This document shows, one piece after another, positions 3,740 through 50,495 of a stretch of 64,000 nt of DNA. The notes beneath the pieces were generated by a model. It worked only from the letters and a program-made list of their open reading frames with translations. It ran no database searches and was not told the DNA's origin. Origin of the DNA: Roseivirga sp. E12. Its GTDB lineage: Bacteria; Bacteroidota; Bacteroidia; Cytophagales; Cyclobacteriaceae. The stretch spans positions 1,488,001 through 1,552,000 of the forward strand of contig NZ_JAGFMD010000001.1 of NCBI RefSeq assembly GCF_017592825.1. Direction: 5' to 3'. Within the stretch, counting starts at the first letter, position 1, and each line of letters starts with the position of its first letter. The translations under genes and the position numbers were made by a program.

Positions 3740-4992
3740 CTGAAAAGCATTCGTCTATTGAACAACACAAGAATTAAGAAGAAACCGATATGACGCCACA
3801 TATAAGCAATGGTGAGCGCCTCCAGATCAAAGCGATCGATTAACAAAGTAATAAGACCTAGGTATATAGCTGCTGAGACTATTTGAGCACCAATATATTT
3901 CATGGTCTGAACTCGCGCGCTGAGCAAATAAGCTAGCAAGTATGAAATGATGGCAAAAAAGTCTCCAATGACTTGATAGCGCACTAGGTATGCTGCTTTC
4001 TCAAAACCGTTAGCAAAGAAGAGTTTAAGGATGAATTCCTTATTGAAATAGTAAACGCTTAGGCAAATCAAGGATACAAAAGCTACAAAACCCATCACCT
4101 TCAAGACGTATTGTTTTAGCTCAAGCGGCTTATGTATGAGCGATGCCATTTTAGGATAGTAGACTACTCCGACCGTTCCGGTGAAGACCAACATATAACT
4201 GGTAGACATTTTTACTACGGACTGCCAAAGGCCAGTCCTGTCAAGCCCATAGAGTTCAATTACATAGTTACGAACTCCAAAATCCAATAGGCGCCCCAAA
4301 GCGATAGCACTAATGGCCATGGCAATGAATTTCCAGATCTTCTTGATTGACTTAACATCTGGCCAGCCAACACCCAAATGGATGGATTTTCTGCGATATA
4401 TCAGATATACCAGCGCACTGAAAAACATAAGACCATATCCAATAACGAAGCTGAGTAAGGCCTGATCTAACGTGCCATAAGTGACACCGAAATAGACTAT
4501 AGCTACCAGCATGATAAGGCCTGACACATTAATTAGTGCATAGGCCTTCACCCTTCTTAAGGCAAGTATGACGGAGTTGAGATAACCCGATAGCAGCATC
4601 AGAATAACCGCGGGAATAAAGATCAACAAGAACTGTTGGGGTGTATACTCATTGATAAATCGGTCAAAAAAGTAGCTTCGATAACGGAAGTACAATACAG
4701 CTAATGTGGTCGCAAATATGACTGCCGTTACCCATATTCCCGTTTTAAAAAGCCGAAGTCTTTGCGTCTCATCAGTCTCTGGGTCTGACCAGTATTTCAT
4801 GATGCTTCTGTTCACTCCTTCGCTAGGAAGCTGAGTAAACAGGGCTGTCAAGTTTTGGAAGTGAGATAGTAAGGTGATCCCCGGTGTGCCTAAGAAAATG
4901 GCAAAGAGCTTATTGATAGTCAGTCCACCAAGTGCTCTGAAGGCTACTGCGGTAAATGACCAGGAAGAACTTCTAAAAAACTCCTTTTTCAA
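3727..4992 (-). CDS. WzxE-like O-antigen/lipid-linked sugar flippase
   Basis: A 421-residue polytopic membrane protein with about 12 hydrophobic segments. The N-terminus has the pattern ALGGLTINKLFAIFLGTPG, typical of WzxE-type O-antigen translocases of the MOP superfamily, which flip undecaprenyl-linked oligosaccharides from cytoplasm to periplasm. It overlaps the upstream acyltransferase by 4 bp (ATGA type) and the downstream glycosyltransferase by 13 bp, so the three are almost certainly translated together. Having an FdtA-type cupin in the same operon suggests the flipped unit carries a TDP-derived amino-deoxy sugar, as in enterobacterial common antigen-like clusters. That link is inference. 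Confidence 0.85.
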   Translation of the reverse strand: MKKEFFRSSSWSFTAVAFRALGGLTINKLFAIFLGTPGITLLSHFQNLTALFTQLPSEGVNRSIMKYWSDPETDETQRLRLFKTGIWVTAVIFATTLAVLYFRYRSYFFDRFINEYTPQQFLLIFIPAVILMLLSGYLNSVILALRRVKAYALINVSGLIMLVAIVYFGVTYGTLDQALLSFVIGYGLMFFSALVYLIYRRKSIHLGVGWPDVKSIKKIWKFIAMAISAIALGRLLDFGVRNYVIELYGLDRTGLWQSVVKMSTSYMLVFTGTVGVVYYPKMASLIHKPLELKQYVLKVMGFVAFVSLICLSVYYFNKEFILKLFFANGFEKAAYLVRYQVIGDFFAIISYLLAYLLSARVQTMKYIGAQIVSAAIYLGLITLLIDRFDLEALTIAYMWRHIGFFLILVLFNRRMLFRWNP

Positions 4993-5945
4993 TTGCTCAC
5001 GGTTTTATGGTTAAGTTTTTTCTCCCAGCTCACAGCTTCTGATGTCTTCCCTCCTAAATGCTCTTTGAAATTGGCCAATGATTCCTTCATCTTCATATCC
5101 ACATAAGAAGTCCCCAAATCAAGCACTCTAATAGAGTTATCCTGACACCATTTGTATAGGTTATTTACTAGAAATACCATGGGACTATATTTTCTATAGT
5201 GTCGAAATTCGACATCACTCGCGGGCATAAAATGATAAACAGCTTCATCATTCACCACTACTACTACTGTGGCGGCCAACATGAAATCATCCATATAGAC
5301 GCCAAAGACACGGTACATTTTAGGGTTGAGTGAATTGGTATTTTCGAGATCAGCCCATGACATGGAAGGTGGTTTGTAGTCTAACTCTCTGAACCTGTTG
5401 ATCCATTGGAAGACCTTCTTTTTATCTCTTTTGACCTCTTTAAATGTAGCTCCTCCATCAACACACTTTTTATTCTTGCGTTGCTCCATTTTATGCATCC
5501 GGTCCAGGAGGTCCGATTCATCAACAGCAATAGTATGGAAGACTCGTTCTTGAATACTTTGGTATTCGCAATCGATTAAAGCAGAGGCAATCTTAGACTG
5601 ACTAAAGTAAGTATCTGGTGCCTGGTGAATTCTGACACGATTAATTTTCATTGTTACCAAAGCCTGCTCGACATTCAGGAGAAAAGCCGTAATGTCTTCT
5701 TCAGAAAGGGCTTCAGATACTTCTAAGCCACCGAAAGGAAGTTTATGCGGGCTATAAGCGATATCGTCAACAATGGAGAAGGCGACATGGGCATGGGCTT
5801 CGTCCGCTTGATCATCTATCCAATAGAAATGTACCTTATCAAAATCATTATTCGTGTTCAGAAATGCCGGATCGTTATAAGCATAGGAGATATAAGAGAC
5901 CTTAGTCTTTGAACTCAATACATCATATAGCCTATAGTTCGACAT
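4989..5945 (-). CDS. FemAB/GNAT-like acyltransferase of sugar cluster
   Basis: A 318-residue soluble protein resembling the double-GNAT FemAB-like proteins common in polysaccharide loci. The C-terminal half holds the acetyltransferase-like core: AATVVVVVNDEAVYHFMPAS (about 230-249) as central strands, then the region ending VLDLGTSYVDMKMKESL (about 280), a FemAB-like signature before a final KEHLGG. Likely role: acyl or aminoacyl modification of a sugar or lipid-linked precursor. It starts directly after the FdtA-type gene with no gap and overlaps the flippase by 4 bp. In related gammaproteobacterial clusters this slot is filled by a sugar N-acyltransferase, which fits. The exact donor is not predictable. 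Confidence 0.7.
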   Translation of the reverse strand: MSNYRLYDVLSSKTKVSYISYAYNDPAFLNTNNDFDKVHFYWIDDQADEAHAHVAFSIVDDIAYSPHKLPFGGLEVSEALSEEDITAFLLNVEQALVTMKINRVRIHQAPDTYFSQSKIASALIDCEYQSIQERVFHTIAVDESDLLDRMHKMEQRKNKKCVDGGATFKEVKRDKKKVFQWINRFRELDYKPPSMSWADLENTNSLNPKMYRVFGVYMDDFMLAATVVVVVNDEAVYHFMPASDVEFRHYRKYSPMVFLVNNLYKWCQDNSIRVLDLGTSYVDMKMKESLANFKEHLGGKTSEAVSWEKKLNHKTVSN

Positions 5946-6332
5946 CTAAAAATCTGTTCGGTTCCTGATATAATCGTCCTCTGAAAATTCGTCTGAGGCC
6001 AAGCCTAGTAGCATTGCCTTTCCTTTAAACAACATCTTACCCCACCACAGTGGTGGAATGTAGAGCCCAGCATTTGGCTGATCCAAAGTATAAGACAAGC
6101 GCTCCCCGGCCTGCGACTCGAGTACTACTTCTATGGTGCCTTGAATACAGATTATCACCTGTTCGCCTGTCTTATGTGCATGACCACCTCGTACCTGTTG
6201 CTCTGGCACTTCACTAAGCCAATAGACTCTTTTCACCTCGAATGGCACATCTTTCAATTCTTCGAGAAACGAGAGGTTACCCCTACGATCTGCGATTTGA
6301 GTGAATGAATAAAGCTCTGGTCTTTTTGCCAT
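5946..6332 (-). CDS. FdtA/WxcM-like cupin (TDP-4-oxo-6-deoxyhexose 3,4-ketoisomerase family)
   Basis: A 128-residue single cupin. The opening IADRRGNLSFLEE, the RGGHAHK motif with His51 and His53, and the IPPLWWGKM segment are characteristic of the FdtA/QdtA/WxcM family. Members convert TDP-4-oxo-6-deoxyglucose to the 3-oxo isomer on the way to 3-amino-3,6-dideoxy sugars (Fuc3NAc, Qui3NAc) of surface glycans. Length is close to that of stand-alone family members. It sits 3 bp after the ATPase gene and directly before the FemAB-like gene. The PLP aminotransferase that normally follows (FdtB/QdtB type) is absent here, so either it is encoded elsewhere or the cupin has another role. Confidence 0.82.
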   Translation of the reverse strand: MAKRPELYSFTQIADRRGNLSFLEELKDVPFEVKRVYWLSEVPEQQVRGGHAHKTGEQVIICIQGTIEVVLESQAGERLSYTLDQPNAGLYIPPLWWGKMLFKGKAMLLGLASDEFSEDDYIRNRTDF

Positions 6333-6335
6333 TTG

Positions 6336-7451
6336 CTAAAAATTGAATTTTAAATAATGCCCCAAAAACACATCATACAGTCGGTAGAAATCTCCATCCT
6401 TTATGATGATCTGCTTCTCTTCGAGTGCTTTTACTGCCCTTCTCATACTACTAGAATTAGTGAAATTCGCCAACCTCAAAAATTCAGAACCCGTTGGTGA
6501 GGTCACCTTACCCGCCTTGGCAAAGGCTTTAGTCACCACAAATTGTTGAGGTGTTATACGCTGGGGCAACTCGGCATAGAACACTCCTTTTTCTTCTATA
6601 AATGGGTAATACACCTGTTCAAACTCTTGCCAGGTCGATGGCACTTTGGACAAGCCAAACAAATAGTTAAAAATTGCCTGCACATAATATGTATGCAGAT
6701 ATGCATAGTCTAAGATGTTCTCAACCAAAGTTTCGTTGATTGGCTTCTTACCTTTTTTAAAATGGTTTACGATGAACTTCTGATACTCCTGCTTCGGGAT
6801 AGACCCTAGTTGCATCATACGCGTGCTTTGGTAAAACGGCCTACTATGCGTATTGAATATCTCATTAATCAGGTGATACTCACTTCCACTATAGATGAAA
6901 CGAACGTTCTGACTGTTTTGCGTTAGCTTTCTTAAGGTTGCCTCGATTGGCATTTTGGCCGAATCGTACTTCTTGATTTCTTGAAACTCATCGATAGCCA
7001 AAACAACAGGTCTATCTTGATTATCTAAGAAAGCGATTACCTCTTCCAAACTTTTAAAGATGCTATGCTGATCGTTATAGATCACATCGATAGAAGGCCT
7101 ACCATCCAAACCGATGGTAAAGGATGTACCGATAGATTTGATAAACTCTTGTAGACGCTGGCCAATCCCTCTTTTTGAAAAAATGTTGCTTTTGACAATG
7201 CCATTAGACAGTTCTCTAAGGAAATCAGAGACTGAGCTTGTTCCCCAGATATCAGCATAAATAAAGTAGAATTCCTTTCCTACCTGACCCTCCACATGCT
7301 TTAGCAATGCTGACTTACCCAATCTGCGGTAAGCATGAATAGTTAGGTCTTGCCGATTGCGAATGGCGGTAATGATCTTTTCCGTCTCCTCCTCCCTATC
7401 ACAGAAGTAGGCAGCACTTAGATAGCCTTTGATCAGAAACGGATTTGTCAT
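6336..7451 (-). CDS. STAND/archaeal-type ATPase with C-terminal winged helix
   Basis: A 371-residue P-loop ATPase of the type often called archaeal-like ATPase. The Walker A region is AYRRLGKSALLKH (about 40-52), with the RR-x-GKS form usual in this family; Walker B is PVVLAIDEFQEI (about 148-159); a sensor-like FIYSGSEYHL follows near 205. The C-terminal 100 residues contain a winged-helix-like region (TSPTGSEFLRLANFTNSSSMRRAVKALEEKQII) that could bind DNA or a partner. Family members lack a general known function; some relate to defence or regulation. The start codon is 7 nt after a TAnnTTTG box, so the mRNA may be leaderless, and a four-unit repeat array covers the promoter. The sugar cluster follows only 3 bp downstream. 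Confidence 0.8.
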   Translation of the reverse strand: MTNPFLIKGYLSAAYFCDREEETEKIITAIRNRQDLTIHAYRRLGKSALLKHVEGQVGKEFYFIYADIWGTSSVSDFLRELSNGIVKSNIFSKRGIGQRLQEFIKSIGTSFTIGLDGRPSIDVIYNDQHSIFKSLEEVIAFLDNQDRPVVLAIDEFQEIKKYDSAKMPIEATLRKLTQNSQNVRFIYSGSEYHLINEIFNTHSRPFYQSTRMMQLGSIPKQEYQKFIVNHFKKGKKPINETLVENILDYAYLHTYYVQAIFNYLFGLSKVPSTWQEFEQVYYPFIEEKGVFYAELPQRITPQQFVVTKAFAKAGKVTSPTGSEFLRLANFTNSSSMRRAVKALEEKQIIIKDGDFYRLYDVFLGHYLKFNF

Positions 7452-7458
7452 GCAATAC

Positions 7459-7489
7459 CAAAATTAAGTATACAGGCTGTAATTTACAA
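7459..7489 (-). promoter_or_regulatory. Promoter of the STAND-like ATPase operon
   Basis: On the minus strand the box TAATTTTG (7466-7459) matches the Bacteroidota -7 consensus TAnnTTTG, with a TTG (7489-7487) 20 bp upstream as the -33 element. The last G of the box is 7 nt from the ATG at 7451, so transcription should begin at or just before the start codon. Repeat units 1 and 2 of the TACA-N3-TGTA array occupy the spacer and the -33 element. Confidence 0.6.
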
Positions 7490-7526
7490 GTTGTAATATA
7501 CATTATGTATTATACAAGTTGTAATA
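7471..7526. repeat. Four tandem 14-bp TACA-N3-TGTA units (candidate operator array)
   Basis: Four contiguous 14-bp units with no gaps: TACAGGCTGTAATT (7471), TACAAGTTGTAATA (7485), TACATTATGTATTA (7499) and TACAAGTTGTAATA (7513). Every unit has TACA at positions 1-4 and TGTA at positions 8-11, a small dyad with a 3-nt centre, followed by an A/T-rich trinucleotide. Units 2 and 4 are identical. The array lies between divergent genes, on top of the ATPase promoter and 50 bp before the GTG of the EamA gene. BlaI/MecI-family operators also use TACA/TGTA half-sites with a different centre, so a regulator of that kind is possible; the binder is unknown. Confidence 0.75.
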
Positions 7527-7576
7527 TTTTGTATCAACAATGAAGTGCGTCATTCTTTTGATTAATTTCACGCACT

Positions 7577-8473
7577 GTGTTTTACCTGCTCCTCACCATA
7601 CTTGCCAACGTAGCCATTTTCATGGCATTCAGGTCATTTAGCAAGTTCTCCATTAAGACCTTCCCTGCCATTATTACCAATTATGGTGTATGCGTAATCA
7701 CCGGAACCCTTTATACCGGATTTAACCACGTTACCAACGAGCTTGATACCTCATCTAATTGGTTTTACATGGCGATCGGATTAGGGATAGTATTTGTCAG
7801 CACTTTCTATCTAATGGCCCGAACCACCCAACTCAGGGGAGTTTCTGTGGCTTCGGTCGCAAGTAAAATGAGCTTGGCCATACCTGTCGTTTTCAGCCTT
7901 TTTATCCTTAAACTTGGCACAAATGACCTTGACATTTGGAACTACGTAGGTATTGCTCTCGCATTCGTTGCGATTCTACTGGTAAGTCGAAAGAAATCAA
8001 GTATCCACTCCAAGAAACAAGCGCTAACACTGAGTTATATTGCCTTACCCTTAGCCGTATTCTTTTTAGGGGGAATTATCGATACCTCCCTAAACTATGC
8101 TAATCATCACTTTGTCACAGCCTCTACTGAGTCTGTATTCCCAATTTTCATCTTTGGCTTCGCCTTTATCATCGGTTTAACTGTAGCATTAATTCAGGGT
8201 GTAAAATTTAGGCGGAAGGATATTCTAGGGGGTATTTATCTTGGCGTACCGAACTATTTTTCGATTTACTTTCAGCTGAAAGCACTCAGCGCCTTCGATA
8301 ATAATGGTGCCATCCTGTACCCTTCTTTAAACATTGGCATTATCATCGTTTCAACCCTCGCGGCAGTCGTTCTATTCAGAGAGAAACTCAGCAAGGCCAA
8401 CTGGCTTGGGGTTGGCCTAGCCATAATTGTCATTCTTCTGCTGAGCCATCAGGAAATACTGAAGGCCATCTAA
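7577..8473 (+). CDS. EamA/DMT-superfamily transporter
   Basis: A 298-residue membrane protein with about ten hydrophobic segments in two similar halves, the usual layout of drug/metabolite transporters of the EamA group. The second half ends with GVGLAIIVILLLS, the typical last helix. The GTG at 7577 is taken as start because it gives a complete first helix (VFYLLLTILANVAIFMAF); the first ATG at 7622 would cut that helix. The substrate is not predictable. It heads a plus-strand run of four genes: the next gene begins 3 bp downstream. The tandem operator array lies upstream. Confidence 0.8.
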   Translation: MFYLLLTILANVAIFMAFRSFSKFSIKTFPAIITNYGVCVITGTLYTGFNHVTNELDTSSNWFYMAIGLGIVFVSTFYLMARTTQLRGVSVASVASKMSLAIPVVFSLFILKLGTNDLDIWNYVGIALAFVAILLVSRKKSSIHSKKQALTLSYIALPLAVFFLGGIIDTSLNYANHHFVTASTESVFPIFIFGFAFIIGLTVALIQGVKFRRKDILGGIYLGVPNYFSIYFQLKALSAFDNNGAILYPSLNIGIIIVSTLAAVVLFREKLSKANWLGVGLAIIVILLLSHQEILKAI

Positions 8474-43301: not shown

Positions 43302-44158
43302 AGAATCATTTTCTCAATTGGTACCACTAGAATTCCTTCGGCACCAGCGCCTCTCAATTCTTCGATAATCTCCCAGAAATCATCTTCCCTGATTACAGTG
43401 TGTACCGAACTCCACCCCTCATCTGCCAAAGGCATAACGGTAGGACTCTTCATACCCGGAAGTATCTTGGTAATTTGATCAATGGCCGAATTAGGCACAT
43501 TCATCAAGATGTATTTGTTATTCTTAGCAGCTTGCACCGCCTCGATTCTGAAGATGAACTTCTCTAAAATGTCTCTCTTGGCTTGGCTCAAATTCTTATT
43601 GGCCAGCATCACTGCTTCCGACTTATAGATGACCTCTACTTCCTTAAGACCATTGCTCATCAGTGTAGAACCTGAACTCACTATGTCGCAGATTCCATAA
43701 GCCAAACCTATGCTTGGAGCGATCTCTACCGAACCACTGATCTCGTTGATTTCGGCATTGACGTTTTGTGATTTTAGGTAATCACCCAAAATTTTCGGGT
43801 AGGAAGTAGCTAAGCTTTTTCCTTCGAAATCCTGCACGCCATTATAAGGTTCGTTTTTATCGATCGCCAAAGACAATCTACATTTCGAGAAGCCAAGGTT
43901 TTTCACCGTGTCGACATCCTTATTTTTCTCTTCGGCCTCGTTGCCACCAACAATGCCTATATCGGCAATACCGTCTTGAACATAGCCTGGAATATCGTCA
44001 TCTCTGAGGAAGAGAAATTCCATTGGAAAGTTGGTAGAAGCGGCCTTTAACTTGCCTGTACCGTTATTAAACTTTATACCACACTCCTTGATAAGCTTCA
44101 AAGAGTCATCGCTCAGGCGACCTTTTTTTTGTACTGCAATGCGTAATGTATTATCCAT
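43298..44158 (-). CDS. hisG: ATP phosphoribosyltransferase, long form
   Basis: A 286-residue first enzyme of histidine synthesis, joining ATP and PRPP. The start LRIAVQKKGRLSDDS, the PRPP loop region EISGSVEIAPSIGLAYGICD (about 135-154) and SSGSTLMSNGL are typical. The C-terminal domain (about 215-286; SPTVMPLADEGWSSVHTVI) is the regulatory HisG_C domain that binds histidine, so this is the hexameric long form that is feedback-inhibited by itself without HisZ. Upstream lies the attenuator and leader peptide. Confidence 0.98.
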   Translation of the reverse strand: MDNTLRIAVQKKGRLSDDSLKLIKECGIKFNNGTGKLKAASTNFPMEFLFLRDDDIPGYVQDGIADIGIVGGNEAEEKNKDVDTVKNLGFSKCRLSLAIDKNEPYNGVQDFEGKSLATSYPKILGDYLKSQNVNAEINEISGSVEIAPSIGLAYGICDIVSSGSTLMSNGLKEVEVIYKSEAVMLANKNLSQAKRDILEKFIFRIEAVQAAKNNKYILMNVPNSAIDQITKILPGMKSPTVMPLADEGWSSVHTVIREDDFWEIIEELRGAGAEGILVVPIEKMIL

Positions 44159-49757: not shown

Positions 49758-50495
49758 ATGAATTCCCACGAAATAGATTACACACTGCATGGCGATGACA
49801 TGCAAATGGTAGAAATAGAACTTGATCCACAAGAAACCGTAATTGCCGAAGCTGGTGCCATGAATTGGATGCATCCAGAAATTCAGTTTGAAACCAAAAT
49901 GGGCGATGGTTCCGAGCCTAATCAAGGCATTTTTGGCAAACTACTCAGCGCGGGAAAAAGGGCACTTACTGGCGAGTCTATTTTTATGACTCATTTCACC
50001 AATCATGGATCAGGTAAAGGTGCCGTCACCTTCTCGTCCCCTTACCCAGGTAAGATTGTACCGATCGACTTAAGTGCAGTGGGTGGTGAGATTATCTGTC
50101 AAAAAGACGCCTTCCTATGTGCCGCTTTAGGTACACGACTGAGCATTGCGTTTGCAAAGAAATTTGGTGCTGGTCTCTTCGGTGGCGAAGGTTTCATTCT
50201 ACAAAAACTTGAAGGTGATGGCATGGCATTTCTTCATGCCGGTGGAACAGTCATTGAAAAGAAACTAGATAATGAAACCATCATGGTAGATACAGGATGT
50301 ATTGTGGGTTTCTCTTCAGGAGTAGACTATGATATTCAAAGAGCTGGCAACCTAAAATCTATGTTCTTTGGTGGCGAAGGATTGTTCTTAGCCACACTAA
50401 GGGGAACTGGAACTGTCTACTTGCAGAGTTTACCATTCTCTAGACTTGTAGATAGAATTATAAGCCAAATCCCTAAGCCTCAGAATAACGGTTAG
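49758..50495 (+). CDS. TIGR00266/AIM24-like protein
   Basis: A 245-residue protein of the AIM24/TIGR00266 family. The ATG at 49758 gives [20 protein letters not shown], the usual N-terminus; the frame extends 18 codons upstream without support. The body is a double beta-sandwich ([40 protein letters not shown]). Yeast AIM24 acts at the mitochondrial inner membrane; bacterial roles are unclear. The end is 4 bp from the convergent regulator gene stop. Confidence 0.9.

Follow-up and report, generated by a model that had tools for sequence, protein, structure and literature searches.

The putative promoter of an AAA+ ATPase gene in Roseivirga sp. E12 is overlain by a tandem array of four short dyads. 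We propose that this array is the operator of the adjacent ATPase, copies of which would bind it side by side and repress their own gene; we put the probability of this reading at roughly 0.78. Tandem dyads stand directly upstream of the start codon in many ATPase relatives from Bacteroidota, in a 14-bp register that becomes 15 bp in remote clades. Their half-site covaries with residue 338 in the predicted recognition helix of the ATPase, arginine at this position being paired with a CA/TG step.

The dyad array and its surroundings

Features of the window, which denotes the whole analysed stretch of 64,000 nucleotides, are listed in Table 1. The unit TACANNNTGTA is found at 7471-7481, 7485-7495, 7499-7509 and 7513-7523. 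All four copies are exact and lie precisely 14 bp apart, in agreement with the original prediction of gapless TACA-N3-TGTA units with intact half-sites. Six matches to TACA-N3-TGTA are present in the window against 0.70 expected, and none of 100 shuffles reached six or more. Two of these matches are single dyads without a tandem partner (43394-43404 and 50291-50301), probably due to chance. A genome-wide search for tandem units, suggested in the original prediction, returned from the 4.7-Mb genome three overlapping in-phase pairs (two units, at most 2 mismatches) at the array and one other pair with 2 mismatches at C11:505956. Apart from 2-mismatch matches, tandem units were found at one place per genome, here as well as in the other four ATPase-bearing genomes of the genus, and there is no sign of a genome-wide regulon.

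The array is situated inside the intergenic region 7452-7576. As had been noticed, this region is divergent, with the ATPase gene on one side (minus strand, start at 7451) and the gene of an EamA-type transporter on the other (plus strand, start at 7577). The proposed -7 box TAATTTTG (7466-7459, minus strand) is separated by 4 nt from the array and by 7 nt from the start codon. A candidate -33 TTG falls into the second dyad, 20 nt from this box. The -33/-7 assignment leans on the promoter consensus of Bacteroidota. Read in this way, the array extends over the putative -33 region and the larger part of the spacer of the ATPase promoter, just as the original prediction had placed it.

Table 1. 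Features at the dyad array (window coordinates)
Feature	Position	Strand	Basis
Four TACA-N3-TGTA dyads in 14-bp steps, proposed ATPase operator	7471..7523	.	exact matches; same place in 5/5 ATPase-bearing genus genomes
TAATTTTG, proposed -7 box of ATPase promoter	7459..7466	-	read from sequence
TTG, candidate -33 element within second dyad, 20 nt from -7 box	7487..7489	-	read from sequence
ATPase, 371 aa: AAA+ domain (PF01637) and predicted C-terminal winged helix (~301-358), residue 338 = Arg	6336..7451	-	Pfam, AlphaFold, Foldseek
FdtA-type sugar isomerase, 3 nt behind ATPase	5946..6332	-	ORFs, Pfam
Acetyltransferase, next after FdtA-type gene	4989-5945	-	ORFs, Pfam
EamA-type transporter, divergent neighbour	7577..8473	+	Pfam

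The ATPase gene heads a close-set run of minus-strand genes, the next two being of FdtA and acetyltransferase type. The FdtA-type gene is probably cotranscribed with the ATPase gene, and the close-set genes behind the ATPase may all share its promoter. Elsewhere in the family, the gene that follows the ATPase is on the same strand in 42 cases, on the opposite strand in 31 and missing in 1 (n = 74). Given this variation in strand, it is the ATPase gene itself that forms the constant companion of the array.

Occurrence of the array within the genus

Comparison was made among 19 genomes of the genus including our own, 18 of which possess the transporter (E <=1e-40). The ATPase is located beside the transporter in five genomes and the array is present in all five, with the number of units ranging from two (G012, G017) over three (G007) and four (G000) to five (G001). 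In 10 of 13 transporter loci without adjacent ATPase, the dyad is absent from the fetched locus. For this reason the transporter was rejected as owner of the array, and it is probably not a target either.

In G015, three perfect units occupy the same intergenic spot without the ATPase. The same holds for G008 and G010, where one dyad is accompanied by a second one with one mismatch. A profile search for family ATPases came back empty for these three genomes, a result that proves nothing by itself. We read these loci as cases in which the ATPase was lost and the array left behind, yet they are the main observation against strict dependence of the array on the ATPase. The G015 units (locus L114) lie between the transporter and fdtA, now before fdtA; they are either a relic or a site kept for another binder.

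The half-sites are invariant in all 16 units of the five genomes (128/128 bases) and only the three spacer bases vary. This behaviour of the half-sites supports the reading of the array as a regulatory site. Copy number, in contrast, varies from 2 to 5, as might be expected if the array were a neutral tandem repeat or a product of chance. Restriction of the changes to the spacer nevertheless speaks against neutrality, as does the register, which stays constant over many different half-sites (see below), and we regard this explanation as very improbable.

Tandem dyads in the ATPase family

The first set comprised 95 non-duplicate homologues with 150 bp of upstream sequence (L001-L003, L024, L025 and L045 were dropped as duplicates). 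Self-matches were observed at lag 14 in 39 upstreams, at the harmonic 28 in 14, at lag 15 in 3 and at any other lag in 0-1; shuffles gave values near zero. Alternating half-sites in 7-bp steps with a score of at least 15/16 were present in 43 of 95 upstreams versus 1 of 475 shuffles, and other steps gave 0-3 of 95. In control upstreams, taken from other ORFs of the same loci, lag 14 was matched in 10 of 285. Judged by locus name, four of these ten (L006-L009) probably belong to the divergent gene on the far side of the same array. Of the six remaining ones, five match at lag 7 too. Self-matches at lag 7, the pattern expected of 7-bp tandem repeats, were seen for other-ORF upstreams in L059, L060, L064, L084 and L096.

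Twenty loci were added to give 115, L137 being kept although its protein is identical to that of L055. Dyad arrays were called above the 99% threshold derived from 115 shuffles, the best of which scored above the threshold itself. This yielded 57 arrays at 14 bp, 50 of them centred on a base, and 0, 4, 12 and 1 arrays at 12, 13, 15 and 16 bp, respectively; the 12 at 15 bp come from other loci. The second set (n = 83) contained 47 arrays at 14 bp and 18 others only at 15 bp; the counts for 12, 13 and 16 bp were 1, 0 and 1. The signal is weaker in the third set (n = 35), searched for base-centred dyads only, where 5 arrays at 14 bp and 6 at 15 bp (11/35 in total) but none at 12, 13 or 16 bp were detected. 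Since no array was called in 46/115, 18/83 and 24/35 loci of the respective sets, family arrays are common yet not universal. Some loci without a called array have single or differently spaced dyads, and none were seen in the L273-L280 cluster.

Half-sites differ among lineages. TACA is found in Roseivirga and CGCA at 53-55% identity, while more distant homologues have ACGTA, ACGAA, TTAC(C), ATCC and other words. Among 20 multi-copy genomes, compiled by hand and not exhaustively, arrays were called for two or more copies in 10, and half-site or register differs between the copies of each such genome. The second PF01637-like gene of our own genome (24% identity) has one longer dyad by appearance and no tandem array was seen before it. 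In a Vibrio plasmid homologue with 25% identity (L164), CTAAATACT occurs three times in 14-bp steps, in a stretch some 30-80 bases ahead of the gene at 1489. The arrangement may therefore extend outside Bacteroidota.

Distribution of the ATPase gene is patchy: 148 genomes of the phylum were sampled and it was found in 20, our own included (E <=1e-40). Relatives were also retrieved from 19 plasmid and 2 phage records. In genus g72 (L144, L145, L178-L180, L182-L184), the ATPase match is contained in a much longer open frame of 1319-1876 aa, hence the ATPase of this genus is likely to be fused to an additional domain.

Covariation of the half-site with residue 338

Covariation scans were restricted to base-centred 14-bp dyads; even-centred arrays and the truncated L148 were left out. 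In addition, the second set of 83 was reduced by 12 loci (4 identical to earlier ones, 8 of abnormal length), and L271, whose upstream sequence was absent, was dropped together with rows gapped at position 338.

Of 988 residue-by-column tests, the pairing of R338 with CA/TG in the half-site ranked first (phi 0.87, the next being 0.67). In the first set, 27 proteins with R338 are associated with CA/TG and 1 is not, against 2 with and 18 without among proteins lacking this arginine. The second set, consisting of loci unused for discovery, gave CA/TG in 11/11 cases with R338 and in 4/36 without (p 8e-8), and R338 again held rank 1, of 1219 tests, in this set alone. Corresponding counts were 5/5 and 1/6 in the third set, and 43/46 and 8/71 over all sets, uncorrected for kinship. 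The exceptions with R338 are L012, L020 and L036, although raw repeats of L012 do hold TACA. When half-sites of the form NCGXA are considered, X is C with R338 (13/13), T with threonine (12/14) and A with serine or alanine (7/7). The words found with lysine at position 338 are mostly TTAC(C), ATAC and ATCC.

Kinship was taken into account by means of a tree built without the tested columns, on which independent pairs were drawn along supported branches. Seven such pairs differ in R338; on average 5.6 agree with the half-site and 0 go against it (median sign-test p 0.031, range 0.031-0.219). In the reverse direction, 13 pairs differ in CA/TG, of which 5.8 go with R338, 0 go against and 7.2 are the same at R338. 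The p value decreased from 0.25 with the first set to 0.0625 with the first two and 0.031 after the third, so that 0.05 was passed only once loci were added, and the test rests on few pairs.

The covariation concerns a single position and not domain-wide divergence. Whole-domain Mantel test on 50 arrays revealed no special link between winged helix and motif (rho 0.149 for AAA, 0.240 for lid, 0.134 for winged helix and 0.002 for the recognition-helix segment). In a mutual-information scan with lysine and arginine grouped, position 338 reached only rank 9 for CA/TG, and 334 led the ranking for CG. Because S334 is not at the top for CG at residue level, no claim is made for residue 334.

Fold and relatives of the ATPase

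The window ATPase matches PF01637 with 37.7 bits (curated cut-off 33.2), a domain found in all 64 aligned rows (E <=0.001), and the Walker A/B residues G45, K46, D154 and E155 are invariant in 79/79 rows. The AlphaFold model (64 rows) is confident, with mean pLDDT of 92.3. Predicted helices 301-313, 322-327 and 333-345, followed by strands 349-352 and 355-358, are in winged-helix order, and residue 338 sits in the third helix, the presumed recognition helix. Among the 64 rows, Pfam detected LexA_DNA_bind in 3 and MarR_2 in 1.

The top three Foldseek hits are 2qen, 2fna (SSO1545) and the DNA-bound Orc1/Cdc6 pair 2qby, and profile comparison also points to SSO1545 (2fna, E 1.2e-16) and PABY2304 (2qen, E 1.8e-13). 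By profile and fold, the window protein is an SSO1545-type ATPase_2 protein, predicted to consist of an SSO1545/Orc1-like AAA+ domain and a C-terminal winged helix. The archaeal proteins SSO1545 and PABY2304 likewise combine AAA+ with a C-terminal domain and are its closest solved relatives; we know of no operator or DNA target for either of them.

The window protein matched no NCBIfam model. Of seven proteins compared with the NCBIfam orc1/cdc6 model, L055 scored 16.8 bits where 181.3 are required, and the window protein and the other five did not match. It is therefore not an Orc1/Cdc6 protein by family cut-off but may be alike in its action on DNA. The AAA+ and winged helix fold is shared with Orc1/Cdc6 initiators, whereas the candidate sites of the window ATPase lie over the promoter of its own gene. 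PADLOC gave no strong full-length defence match for the window protein, only two PDC-S01 models covering residues 17-57 and 23-68 (best E 0.00012). The best E value among seven proteins was 1.4e-8.

DnaA is a familiar case of an AAA+ protein that regulates its own gene through clustered sites at the promoter, as proposed here. It differs from the window ATPase in fold order and DNA-binding domain, and the DnaA box is near-constant, while the half-site described here is lineage-specific. Mycobacterial IniR is an example of an SSO1545-like ATPase that acts as a transcription factor; it binds a promoter, and its ATPase domain has been likened to SSO1545 (PMC5760070). IniR is unlike the window ATPase in its size of 818 aa, in its MalT-like domain and SdiA-like DNA-binding domain and in activating another operon (PMC5760070).

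Candidate binders of the array

Judged from these comparisons, the ATPase is very probably the protein that binds the array. The original prediction had invoked an unknown regulator. A regulator separate from the ATPase is not supported, as the array accompanies the ATPase rather than the transporter and its half-site covaries with the ATPase's own residue 338. With the ATPase as the most likely binder, the "unknown regulator" would therefore be the product of the adjacent gene.

BlaI/MecI proteins had been named as candidates. Like the system described here, BlaI/MecI and CopY repressors combine TACA/TGTA dyads with a winged helix, and PF03965 (BlaI/MecI) has 12 matches in the genome, 10 of them over the cut-off. 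Together with the G015 array that persists without the ATPase, this would suit a separate DNA-binding regulator, of BlaI/MecI or another family, with the array as its binding site and the ATPase under its control. BlaI-type operators, however, have the spacing TACA-N2-TGTA, whereas 4/4 array units have N3, and the repressors lack the AAA+ domain. TACA-N3-TGTA is absent within 160 bp upstream of all five BlaI-type genes inspected out of the 12. BlaI/MecI was rejected as binder on these two grounds, spacer length and upstream regions. A regulator of any other family would also have to be reconciled with a half-site that shifts with ATPase lineage and with an array recurring in tandem nowhere else in the genome. 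We consider a separate regulator improbable, if less so than a neutral repeat. A single TACA-N2-TGTA dyad was observed 66 bases before one of the five inspected BlaI-type genes (L258). Several TAGGA-type dyads precede a BlaI/MecI-family gene in the same genome (L254) and are perhaps its own operator.

Promoter geometry and proposed mechanism

Of 114 family arrays, 45 are followed by exact TAnnTTTG, compared with a mean of 4.2 and a maximum of 9 for shuffled tails, and 43 of these 45 extend over the -33 zone. The distance from the end of the -7 box to the start codon has a median of 14 nt in the family and is 7 nt in the window.

We suggest the following mechanism. The array would serve as private operator of the adjacent ATPase, whose C-terminal winged helix would read one half-site, here TACA. 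Copies of the ATPase would bind adjacently on the 14-bp dyads, most likely cooperatively, and cover the -33 element and spacer of their own nearly leaderless promoter. ATPase bound in this position should block RNA polymerase, hence repression of its own promoter, together with the genes transcribed from it, is the likely outcome. Nucleotide state of the ATPase may set the ease of assembly or release. Binding, cooperativity, repression over activation and the role of ATP are all what we infer from the arrangement of sites and protein. Three 14-bp steps amount to 42 bp or four turns of B-DNA, which by arithmetic gives a regular phase of 120 degrees; such winding would suit an AAA+ filament.

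Provided that the ATPase binds, repression has a good chance of being its effect. Protein placed at and above -33 could also activate, or the array could mainly be a nucleation or loading site for AAA+ assembly, in the manner of initiators or partition systems, to which promoter overlap would be secondary. The similarity of the fold to SSO1545 and Orc1/Cdc6 and the presence of homologues in 19 plasmid records are in line with a loading site. Both possibilities are at odds with an array that adjoins the start codon and covers -33 almost wherever an exact -7 box is found, and the contigs of most fetched copies show nothing to mark them as separate replicons. We therefore judge loading or activation unlikely and favour autorepression by the ATPase.

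Significance

Autoregulation in itself is ordinary. No description of arrays before such ATPases was found in open-access titles and abstracts, a search outside of which most subscription journals and preprints fall. A family of Orc-like ATPases with private tandem operators and a readable code for them thus appears to be unreported. At odds somewhat short of even, we tentatively suggest a large, apparently undescribed class of Orc1-like bacterial AAA+ ATPases, each of which acts on its own gene through a private tandem operator. Its members would assemble on these arrays as filaments that depend on nucleotide and take up a dyad every 14 or 15 bp, a simple code at one residue of the recognition helix would relate R, K, T or S/A to the fourth base of the half-site, and paralogues could thereby diverge and remain insulated within one cell.

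These findings provide a handle on a widespread family annotated merely as "ATP-binding protein", as the expected DNA word can be read before many members' own gene. The many natural pairs of protein and site would make the specificity code of the winged helix and the evolution of insulated paralogues directly testable. Small bacterial AAA+/winged-helix proteins with predicted sites may further offer a route to how Orc-like ATPases assemble on DNA.
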